Shown: positions 7,413-20,580 of the stretch, piece by piece
Layout of the letters: each line of letters opens with the position of its first letter
How positions within the stretch are numbered: position 1 is the first letter of the stretch
NCBI RefSeq assembly: GCF_018326425.1
Contig: NZ_AP024601.1
Span: 1,166,001-1,230,000, forward strand
Source: Polycladomyces abyssicola
GTDB taxonomy: Bacteria; Bacillota; Bacilli; Thermoactinomycetales; JIR-001
Length of the DNA: 64,000 nt
Reading direction: 5' to 3'
Notes under the pieces: model-generated
Seen by the model: the letters and a program-made list of their open reading frames with translations, nothing else
The model's database searches: none
Told to the model about the DNA's origin: nothing
Translations under genes and position numbers: made by a program

Positions 7413-7639
7413 TTTTTCACCTCTTCAATTTTGTCGGTTTTTTCAAATAATCTATCTACTCTTTCTCTTGACATGGGATGCCAGTGATATCTAGCTTTAT
7501 CGTGACCGAGGGGTAATTCAGCACGAATCTAGGTAATAGGTTCACCTTGAATCCGACCCGTGTCATAGAAGAAATAAACCTTGCTATTACCAACCATGTT
7601 TGGATAATTGGCCCCGAGAGGGGCATTGTAAGATTCACC
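7409..7639 (-). pseudogene. remnant of a polymorphic-toxin C-terminal tip with in-frame stop
   Basis: The frame directly after the SUKH stop codon reads as protein: YNAPLGANYPNMVG, then KVYFFYDTGRIQGEPIT. A TAG (7529-7531) follows, then IRAELPLGHDKARYHWHPMS and a charged helical end. Its TGA overlaps the ATG of the downstream two-repeat gene as ATGA. Loss of the N-terminal part, an internal stop and the position directly before an immunity-like gene suggest a displaced toxin tip. No named toxin family was recognised, so the function is an inference from layout. Confidence 0.5.
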
Positions 7640-8095
7640 TCATTCATCATCTTCATATGGACTCAACCTTGAGAGAAAGTCGGTGAAAGAATCACAAATA
7701 TATTCAATGGCTTCAGGTTCTTCTTGAGGGTCTAATTCGTGGTCGTAAAATACGATCTTTAGATTTTCTCTTGACTCACGATAATCAAAACAATAGTAAT
7801 CACCAAATGGAGAATCAGCAAAAGCAATAATTTCTTTTGGGATACCATGTTCTTCCCGTAGGTCGTTGTTTACTTCAAGAATATTAATATACTTATCTTC
7901 ATCAAAACAGAAAAGCCAGCCAAAAACCAATTCTCCACCATCGTCTAGTTTTATTACATTATCCTCAGTTGTTCCGCCATGGTGATTACGGCTAAACTCT
8001 ATATAATCATCAGGAAAAGTGATACCTAATTGACGCTCGATTTCTTTTATTACCTCTACATCTACCGGTTGATGTGTATAACGCCATCTTGTCAT
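7640..8095 (-). CDS. SMI1/KNR4 (SUKH) family immunity protein
   Basis: The intact 151-residue protein has the SUKH hallmark pattern: helix EVIKEIERQLGITFPDDYIEFSRNHHGG, then strands ending ELVFGWLFCFDEDKY. IIAFADSPFGDYYCFDYRE and a C-terminal helix ESFxDFLSRL-like segment follow. SUKH proteins are immunity partners of nuclease-type polymorphic toxins; Bacillus YobK neutralises the LXG toxin YobL in this way. The ATG is preceded by AGGTGATG. About nine bases before the start lies the stop of a WHH-type HNH nuclease remnant, which fits the known SUKH/HNH pairing. It is the only immunity gene in the island with no frame disruption. Confidence 0.88.
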   Translation of the reverse strand: MTRWRYTHQPVDVEVIKEIERQLGITFPDDYIEFSRNHHGGTTEDNVIKLDDGGELVFGWLFCFDEDKYINILEVNNDLREEHGIPKEIIAFADSPFGDYYCFDYRESRENLKIVFYDHELDPQEEPEAIEYICDSFTDFLSRLSPYEDDE

Positions 8096-18810: not shown

Positions 18811-19644
18811 TCAATGCGTTCCGTCACCCGAATCGGAAGAGTCGAACACGATATCCTGCAACCATTGCGGAATACCGACGCGTCGGGCGTAGCGGAGGCG
18901 AATCTCGTCATATTTTTTGGTGTCGGGCAATTGAGCGAACAATTCGTGGCTGGGTCCACCCCAGGCATCATTGGTATTAACCTCCAACAGCCACCATTGC
19001 CCGTCCACGTCCACTCCCAGATCCAGTCCCACTTCCTCAAACTGATCAACCGTATCCAGTGACCGGCACACCCAATCGGCGATCTCTCGCCAGGATGGTT
19101 GGGTGTCTTCCTCAATTCCCAATGCCTGTAACACCCGTTCCGTCGGGATCACCTCGCCTCCGGAGATCGCCACATTGGAAACGATGCCTCCACTCCCGGC
19201 CACGCGCACCAAATCGCCGGCGTATACCCAACGGTTGTCGGTATCGCGTTGGAGGTGGACTCGGATGTCAAACGGGCGGTTCTGGTAGGTGCGGAGCGGG
19301 GCGGCCTGTTGGGCGATAAAGATGTCGGATTTCGGGTGGGAGGAGGAGAAGATCGGCCAGAAACGGAGCCAATCGGGGAACACGAGCCGTTCTCCCGTTT
19401 CTTGTCGGGTCCAGTGAATCTTGTTCGCTAGCTGTTCCAGCAGACTGATCCGACTGCCGCCGAAGCCGGCGACGGGTTTGATGTAGACCCGCTCGTATCG
19501 ATGGAGTAAACTACGCAGGGAAGTCTCTTCCAGCAATTGAGTTTCCGGCAGATGGCAGGGGGCGTTCCGTTGTTCCGACAGCAACAGGTGCATGCCCCAT
19601 TTGTTGAGAAAACGACGTTCTGGTTCCCATCCTACCGGTTTCAT
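18811..19644 (-). CDS. YheC/YheD-like ATP-grasp protein (short form)
   Basis: The 277-residue protein keeps the ATP-grasp core of the YheC/D endospore-coat-associated family. It has NKWGMHLLLSEQ, the nucleotide-binding strand YIKPVAGFGGSRIS, RPFDIRVHLQRD and DLVRVAGSGGIVSN. The metal-binding end is EVGLDLGVDVDGQWWLLEVN. Family proteins are usually 350-450 residues, so the N-terminal domain is missing here. ATP-grasp enzymes join a carboxylate to an amine with ATP; the substrate is unknown. It overlaps the upstream panD-like gene by four bases (ATGA), so the two are co-translated. No downstream gene follows; about 280 bases to yqhH hold no evident feature. Confidence 0.8.
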   Translation of the reverse strand: MKPVGWEPERRFLNKWGMHLLLSEQRNAPCHLPETQLLEETSLRSLLHRYERVYIKPVAGFGGSRISLLEQLANKIHWTRQETGERLVFPDWLRFWPIFSSSHPKSDIFIAQQAAPLRTYQNRPFDIRVHLQRDTDNRWVYAGDLVRVAGSGGIVSNVAISGGEVIPTERVLQALGIEEDTQPSWREIADWVCRSLDTVDQFEEVGLDLGVDVDGQWWLLEVNTNDAWGGPSHELFAQLPDTKKYDEIRLRYARRVGIPQWLQDIVFDSSDSGDGTH

Positions 19645-20045
19645 TTCCCTTCTCCCCCACGGATGTGATGGGCGGATTGCCGAGTGTAGGTTTTGACATC
19701 CACCAGATGGTTTTGTTCATCCACCAAAACTGTGCGGTGTTGAAACCGTTCCAAATCTGATTCGGTGAAGAAGCCTACACTGAGGATGATGACGAGGTCT
19801 CCCACTCGGAACAAATGGGCGGGCGGACCATTGACGCAGATCTCTCCGCTTCCATAGGGAGCTGGGATGGTGTAGGTCTGCCACGTCTGGGCGGAGCGGA
19901 GACCGTTGATCTGCACCATTTCAAACGGGCGGATTGAAGCGGCTTCCATCAATTGTTCATCAATGCTGATGCTCCCGACATAGTCGAGGTTGGCCTCCGT
20001 CACCCTTGCTCGGTGAATTTTTCCTTTGCACGTCATATGCAGCAT
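19641..20045 (-). CDS. panD: aspartate 1-decarboxylase (PanD)-like protein with altered active site
   Basis: The 134-residue protein follows PanD closely. It has Lys9, Tyr22, the self-cleavage pair Gly24-Ser25 in YVGSISID that makes the pyruvoyl group, Thr57-Tyr58, and GSGEICVNGPPAHL with GDLVIILS after it. PanD makes beta-alanine for pantothenate. The position equivalent to the substrate-carboxylate arginine (Arg54 in E. coli and B. subtilis) is threonine here (QTWQTY), although an Arg lies at 50. The NGAAA loop is NGPPA. No panB or panC is adjacent; it is instead coupled to an ATP-grasp gene. It could be the cell's PanD or a paralogue with another substrate. Confidence 0.8.
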   Translation of the reverse strand: MLHMTCKGKIHRARVTEANLDYVGSISIDEQLMEAASIRPFEMVQINGLRSAQTWQTYTIPAPYGSGEICVNGPPAHLFRVGDLVIILSVGFFTESDLERFQHRTVLVDEQNHLVDVKTYTRQSAHHIRGGEGK

Positions 20046-20387
20046 AAATCATCCGTCCTTTTGTGTCGATGGGATAATGTATGATGAAATAGAGAAAAGG
20101 TTTAGAAAATAGGCTGGAAAACCCGTTCCGCATTTTCAGCAGTTTCAAATCGTTTCGCCATTAGGATAAGAAATGTGTATAATGGAACATGGGATACGTG
20201 ATGGAAACGATTATGAGCCGAATTTTCTTGTGAAAAGTGTCGATTTTGTTCGGGATTTATGGCACAATGAGAAGGAGAAATGCTGTTTACAGGGCAGATC
20301 AGCCCTGATAAGGGAACGTTTTCCCGATTGAAAGCAGATAAGCTGTTCCCACCCCCATCGTTCGACAAATGGATATGGCCAAGCGGT

Positions 20388-20580
20388 TGAAGGCGGGAGG
20401 AGAGACCACGTAAAGGCGTGGCGCCGAAGGAGCAAACCCATCACACCGGGTGAATCTCTCAGGCAAAAGGAGGCCCGCTGGACGCGACTCTGGAGAGCGC
20501 TCACTCCCAAGTGAGCCACCCAAGGGGCAGTCCCGCTCCCCATGCGGGATGAACTCTCAGGTTTCCGGACAGAGTGGAAC
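20388..20580 (+). ncRNA. tandem glycine riboswitch
   Basis: Two glycine aptamers lie back to back. The first has GGAGGAGAGACC, the GCGCCGAAGGAGCAA bulge and GAATCTCTCAGGCAAAAGGA. The second has GGAGAGCGC, GCCACCCAAGGGGCAG and GAACTCTCAGGTTTCCGGAC with AGAGTGG closing it. The CGAAGGAGCAA and CTCTCAGG(C/T)AAA-type motifs are diagnostic. In Bacillus the same tandem element switches on the glycine cleavage operon when glycine is plentiful. It ends about 90 bases before gcvT. A TATAAT at 20178 is one candidate promoter but lacks a good -35. Confidence 0.95.

Follow-up and report, generated by a model that had tools for sequence, protein, structure and literature searches.

The substrate specificity of aspartate 1-decarboxylase (PanD) is reported to be set by Arg54, and Ala74-Ala75 are listed as strictly conserved (PMC3314653). 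According to modelling, Arg54 binds the aspartate beta-carboxylate, and it is reported to be tied to the aspartate specificity of PanD (PMC10743139). The YheC/YheD family consists of ATP-grasp proteins; in B. subtilis the yheC/yheD genes belong to the sigma-E/SpoIIID regulon (PMC517825). B. subtilis YheD, a protein of the spore coat, surrounds the spore and is without known function (PMC7911427). The open literature held nothing relevant on YheC with ATP-grasp or on PanD with taurine or cysteate; an earlier description in subscription papers is possible. The divergent second PanD described here is repeatedly paired with a ligase of this family in many spore formers, which suggests an undescribed tailoring step during spore formation.

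The panD2-ligase gene pair

The window is the whole 64,000-nucleotide stretch of Polycladomyces abyssicola DNA that was analysed (NCBI RefSeq assembly GCF_018326425.1, contig NZ_AP024601.1, positions 1,166,001 to 1,230,000). The pair consists of the following features:

19641..20045, minus strand: panD2, 134 aa, paralogous pyruvoyl-dependent decarboxylase of the PanD fold (predicted from sequence)
18811..19644, minus strand: short YheC/D-type ATP-grasp ligase, 277 aa, start inside the panD2 stop codon
19641..19644, minus strand: ATGA stop/start overlap, minus-strand reading GGGAAATGAAACCG

The four-base overlap of a PanD-like and an ATP-grasp gene, first noticed in a sequence-only reading of this DNA, is confirmed: both reading frames lie on the minus strand as listed and share ATGA. 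This overlap is likely to couple the translation of panD2 and the ligase gene. Loci L014, L015, L022, L072 and L110 have an identical four-base overlap of the two genes. The window pair is flanked by the yqhG and SNF2-helicase gene pair on one side and by gcvT with its glycine riboswitch on the other. The riboswitch aptamer (RF00504, 63.6 bits, window 20387-20484, plus strand) precedes gcvT, a short way upstream of the panD2 pair, which is divergently oriented.

Conserved and altered residues of PanD2

The window protein scores 127.8 bits against Pfam Asp_decarbox PF02261 (cut-off 25) and barely reaches the NCBIfam panD equivalog TIGR00223 (106.2 bits, cut-off 106), so its earlier description as a PanD-like enzyme holds, only just in the case of the second model. 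We use the name PanD2 for PanD copies with W55 and N72-G73-P74-P75 (NGPP). In our alignment canonical PanD has L, F, M or I at position 55 and an N-G-A-A motif, with one canonical row reading N-G-P-A. The 99 PanD2 rows form one clade in a 142-sequence PanD tree (SH-aLRT 99, separating branch 0.74). W55 and NGPP constitute a diagnostic signature that allows genomes to be re-annotated; the current NCBIfam label for PanD2 is panD.

The G24-S25 cleavage site and residues K9, H11, Y22, T57, Y58, N72, G73 and N112 are kept in the window PanD2 and the aligned PanD2 rows, and G24-S25, K9, Y22, T57, Y58 and N72 are invariant across these rows. Since the cleavage-site and catalytic residues are retained, self-processing and decarboxylation are expected. 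The AlphaFold model of the window PanD2 is an ordinary PanD barrel. One could also imagine that the pair merely reflects clustering of co-expressed spore-coat genes, PanD2 being a structural or regulatory double-psi barrel for the ligase and not an amine maker. Such a role would agree with the loss of R54 in a fifth of the PanD2 rows and with the coat location and unassigned function of YheD (PMC7911427), but the invariant residues would be needless for a non-enzyme, and we consider it unlikely.

In the window PanD2, R54 is changed to T, L55 to W and A74A75 to PP. Pro-Pro occupies positions 74-75 in every PanD2 row. R54 is kept in 43/43 canonical and 80/99 PanD2 rows; the other 19 PanD2 rows have T (the window, its genus and Thermoactinomyces daqus) or L, S or I (15 rows). 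Parsimony puts the loss of R54 at about five changes, two of them forced by supported branches. Because Arg54 is lost and Pro-Pro replaces Ala74-Ala75, the substrate of the window PanD2 may be other than aspartate. With the catalytic residues kept but R54 of the window protein replaced by threonine, beta-alanine is a plausible product of the R54-bearing PanD2 (most of the clade) and a doubtful one of the window PanD2.

PanD2 might nevertheless be an ordinary second aspartate decarboxylase, with the ligase using its beta-alanine to form a beta-alanyl amide, in the window too. The prevalence of R54, the PanC-bearing genomes with PanD2 as the sole PanD (Salinicoccus, Lacicoccus, Lentibacillus and Brevibacillus massiliensis) and the pairing of a canonical-type PanD with a YheCD ligase in two genomes (G002 and G017) are all compatible with this. 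The substitutions at position 54 and the P-P found in all PanD2 rows at a site reported as strictly conserved in PanD (PMC3314653) argue against it, which leaves it a possible explanation, though not one we favour.

Distribution of PanD2 and relation to CoA synthesis

PanD2-like places numbered 285 in a scan covering 84,980 species genomes; the locus counts use the best 80 of the 285. Among the best 80 are loci of Paenibacillus, Brevibacillus, Aneurinibacillus, Thermoactinomyces, Tumebacillus, Virgibacillus, Thalassobacillus, Salinicoccus and other genera. About 20 of 120 related genomes carry a window-type PanD, nearly always besides a canonical copy. Most genomes with PanD2 carry a separate, canonical panD as well, located in the panBC operon wherever the surroundings were read. 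The window genome itself has three panD copies: a canonical one at L046 within the panBC operon, panD2 in the window, and a frameshifted third one.

PanD2 is the only PanD in four genomes that lack PanC and, judging by this gene content, does not serve pantothenate there. It is also the only PanD in Brevibacillus massiliensis, two Salinicoccus, Lacicoccus and Lentibacillus, where PanC is present and panBC lacks panD; in these five genomes PanD2 may make beta-alanine for CoA. The panBC genes without panD of Salinicoccus and Lacicoccus are found at loci L090, L091, L123 and L178-L180. If PanD2 served CoA (pantothenate) only, the proximity of the ligase would be incidental, and the panBC-bearing genomes with PanD2 as the sole PanD could be explained in this way. 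However, since four PanD2-only genomes lack PanC and most genomes with PanD2 have a canonical panD, PanD2 does not appear to be merely a CoA gene. The recurrence of ligase pairing across genera and ligase clades also weighs against a purely CoA-related function, which we regard as improbable.

PanD2 has no neighbouring ligase in 35 of the best 80 loci, which belong to halophilic Bacillaceae and to Staphylococcaceae (Salinicoccus, Lacicoccus). Salinicoccus and Lacicoccus are not known to sporulate. As solo PanD2 occurs in these non-sporulating genera, the PanD2 clade as a whole is not spore-specific.

Pairing of PanD2 with YheCD ligases

The sequence-only reading had proposed a survey of genomes for conserved adjacency of the two genes, and the adjacency is indeed conserved. 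Among the best 80 of the 285 PanD2 loci, a YheCD ligase lies no more than 6 kb away in 45; in 35 it is directly downstream on the same strand. A ligase lies within 1.5 kb in 11/20 sampled PanD2 loci versus 0/30 canonical panD loci (Fisher p 4.5e-6, the genomes not being independent). The pairing is far above chance and recurs across many genomes and genera, which rules out that it is unique to the window genome.

In the ligase tree, PanD2-paired ligases fall into a 39-row clade and a 19-row clade that includes the window ligase, with a few elsewhere. The canonical-type third PanD of G002 and G017 is paired with ligases of yet another YheCD clade. Pairing of PanD-type decarboxylases with YheCD ligases thus recurs across at least two separated ligase clades, which points to a functional link. 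Alternatively, the recurrence could stem from one ancestral two-ligase locus with later loss, and some Paenibacillus loci still hold two ligases.

The canonical-type third panD, with another YheCD ligase next to it, is intact in G002 and G017 and present as frameshifted remains in the window genome (G000) and G009. These copies are located as follows:

L043 (G000:C1 1495925-1496259), minus strand: third canonical-type panD
L047 9304-9690: third canonical-type panD
L049 8210-8596: third canonical-type panD
L057 about 7600-8000: third canonical-type panD

The third panD copy of G023 has an internal stop. In Thermoactinomyces daqus (L016 600-1505 / L063) a frameshift splits the ligase frame, leaving two ORFs that overlap; the gene is either a pseudogene there or affected by a sequencing error.

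The YheC/D-type ATP-grasp ligase

The window ligase matches ATPgrasp_YheCD PF14398 with 169.2 bits (cut-off 26.8) over profile positions 7-237 of 255. The long YheC/D proteins of the window genome have roughly 355-494 aa, and there are many short ones of about 250-300 aa. With 277 aa and a match starting at residue 10, the window ligase lacks the N-terminal part of the long proteins, in agreement with the sequence-only reading. Residues K56, R128, D208, E221 and N223 are invariant or more than 90% conserved among 30 relatives. About 20 YheCD-family ATP-grasp genes are present in the 3.2 Mb window genome, many of them short and clustered and some broken, representing a lineage expansion.

YheCD ligases beside makers of small amino compounds

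Amine ligation is supported mainly by an argument from gene order: short YheCD ligases recur next to predicted enzymes for small amino compounds. Short ligases of the window genome adjoin genes for PEP mutase, phosphonopyruvate decarboxylase and 2-aminoethylphosphonate (AEP) transaminase. In three genera (L216, L224, L230) the ligase gene directly precedes that for PEP mutase, and the genes for phosphonopyruvate decarboxylase and AEP transaminase come next. The AEP-gene order of the window genome, ligase included, recurs in G022 and G035, with a related arrangement in G094. Altogether, YheCD ligases lie beside the AEP pathway in six genera of Bacilli: L044 4619-11030 (minus strand), L216, L219, L220, L224, L225 and L230.

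A PRK08197-type threonine-synthase-like gene is present, in various gene orders, in 34 of the best 80 PanD2 loci. In the order to which the window genome belongs, exactly six genomes carry this gene (59-62% identity); each of them also has PanD2, and in four of the six the gene is located beside a second YheCD ligase. This association would fit a scheme in which the threonine-synthase-like neighbour supplies an acidic amino acid that is sulfonated or unusual in some other way, PanD2 decarboxylates it (e.g., cysteate to taurine) and the ligase attaches the resulting amine. Brevibacillus loci carry instead a dehydrogenase gene; L-sulfolactate dehydrogenase is its top-scoring NCBIfam model, but the score of 320 bits is under the cut-off of 500. 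The threonine-synthase-like gene was rejected as a cysteate synthase, scoring 85 bits (cut-off 325) versus 467 bits for threonine synthase models, and the genus of the window lacks it, having just a paralog of 41-42% identity. We therefore consider the cysteate-to-taurine scheme very unlikely. The malate/sulfolactate-dehydrogenase-family gene lies just upstream of panD2 on the same strand in nine Brevibacillus loci (L103, L106, L111, L116-L118, L124, L125 and L142); the same nine loci have a duplicated PBP4-type D-Ala-D-Ala carboxypeptidase gene, also just upstream and on the same strand.

A KamA-family radical SAM aminomutase-like gene was found beside short YheCD genes at L044 11804-12907, L045 9231-10340 and L057 4797-5918. 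As a general rule this neighbourhood was rejected: it occurs in 3/25 loci read (the window genome, G002 and G009), and the KamA-family gene itself is common without neighbouring YheCD ligases. At L043 15848-17692 (minus strand), an Fe(II)/2-oxoglutarate oxygenase of the TauD family (GntD/VioC-like) is separated by 3 bases from a short YheCD ligase and is perhaps another building-block enzyme. An ATP-grasp protein like the L-aspartate-L-methionine ligase LdmS (303 bits, cut-off 475) is encoded within a run of short YheCD genes at L045 6681-7871 (minus strand).

A candidate sigma-K-like promoter at ligase-linked loci

We searched for matches to the sigma-K consensus, which we take to be AC-N15-17-CATANNNTA. 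The window has a full match upstream of panD2:

20075..20101, minus strand: candidate sigma-K-type promoter AC-N16-CATACATTA, -10 at 20075-20083, -35 AC at 20100-20101

The match is also conserved in the genus's two remaining species (L014, L015). The full pattern precedes 7/42 ligase-linked panD2 genes, against 0.3 expected and a maximum of 3 across 100 shuffles, and CATANNNTA by itself precedes 14/42 (2.0 expected). The corresponding counts are 1/57 and 6/57 for solo PanD2 and 0/44 and 2/44 for canonical panD. The difference between linked and solo loci has a p of about 0.01, related genomes not being independent. Enrichment of the sigma-K-like promoter is thus confined to ligase-linked loci and is seen in a minority of these. 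No sigma-E promoter (-35 plus -10) was found in the linked, solo or canonical group.

On this promoter pattern, expression of the pair in the mother cell is likely. The spore association suggested in the sequence-only reading is partly upheld: the motif enrichment favours it for linked loci, and the solo PanD2 of non-sporulating genera speaks against extending it to PanD2 in general.

Proposed role of the cassette

We propose, with confidence that is about evenly balanced, that the pair is a mother-cell cassette in which PanD2 would make a small amine and the ligase would attach this amine through an amide bond, probably to a carboxylate of a protein or peptide. PanD2 would cleave itself to form the pyruvoyl cofactor and decarboxylate an amino acid to the amine. 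The YheC/D-type ligase would activate a carboxylate with ATP, most likely that of a protein or peptide, and join the PanD2-made amine to it. In spore formers the cassette would probably be expressed late in sporulation in the mother cell and would probably tailor a spore-coat component. R54-bearing PanD2 probably makes beta-alanine or an acidic analogue close to it, and the amine of the window subgroup (T54, W55) probably derives from a different amino acid. We infer both activities, their substrates, the timing and the spore location; the observations behind this proposal are the PanD2 clade, its conserved residues, the recurrent pairing and the motif enrichment.

Joint synthesis of a beta-alanyl amide, as envisaged in the sequence-only reading, is in keeping with the conserved cassette and the retained active-site residues of the ligase; beta-alanine itself is doubtful for the window, its PanD2 lacking Arg54 and having PP for Ala74-Ala75. 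More speculatively, and with rather low confidence, a PanD-fold decarboxylase of non-aspartate specificity may supply a dedicated amine for attachment to carboxylates of spore-coat proteins by a short YheC/D ligase. This would be an undescribed spore-specific protein amidation and one of several cassettes of spore-forming Bacilli that combine an amine source (PanD2, canonical-type PanD, threonine-synthase-like, 2-aminoethylphosphonate) with a YheCD ligase. If the proposed role is true, PanD2 is a branch of PanD that has departed from pantothenate synthesis.

Comparison with known systems

The model of the window ligase (mean pLDDT 87) has TTLL6, TTLL11, TTL, ArgX, LysX and RimK as its closest structures (Z 13.9-16.1). 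Tubulin tyrosine ligase (TTL), the TTLL glutamylases, the LysW ligases (ArgX/LysX) and RimK form ATP-dependent amide bonds that join an amino acid to the carboxylate of a protein or carrier protein. They differ from the window ligase in sequence, with 12-20% identity and no sequence-level match; a phmmer search of the ligase against PDB sequences gave a chance match only. The model favours a carboxylate of a protein or peptide as the acceptor, although a shared fold is no proof of the substrate.

The window PanD2 shares with aspartate 1-decarboxylase the fold (rmsd of the model 1.3-1.5 A to E. coli and M. tuberculosis PanD) and G24-S25, K9, H11, Y22, T57, Y58, N72 and G73. It differs in T54, W55 and P-P at 74-75, in its location outside panBC and in being paired with a ligase.

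With the spore-coat ATP-grasp proteins YheC/YheD (PF14398) the window ligase shares the ATP-grasp domain (169 bits) and the conserved catalytic positions; in contrast to them it is short, lacks the N-terminal part and is encoded in an operon with a decarboxylase. YheC/YheD are widespread in spore formers, and recurrent partnership with predicted amine makers offers a concrete substrate hypothesis for the ligase family.
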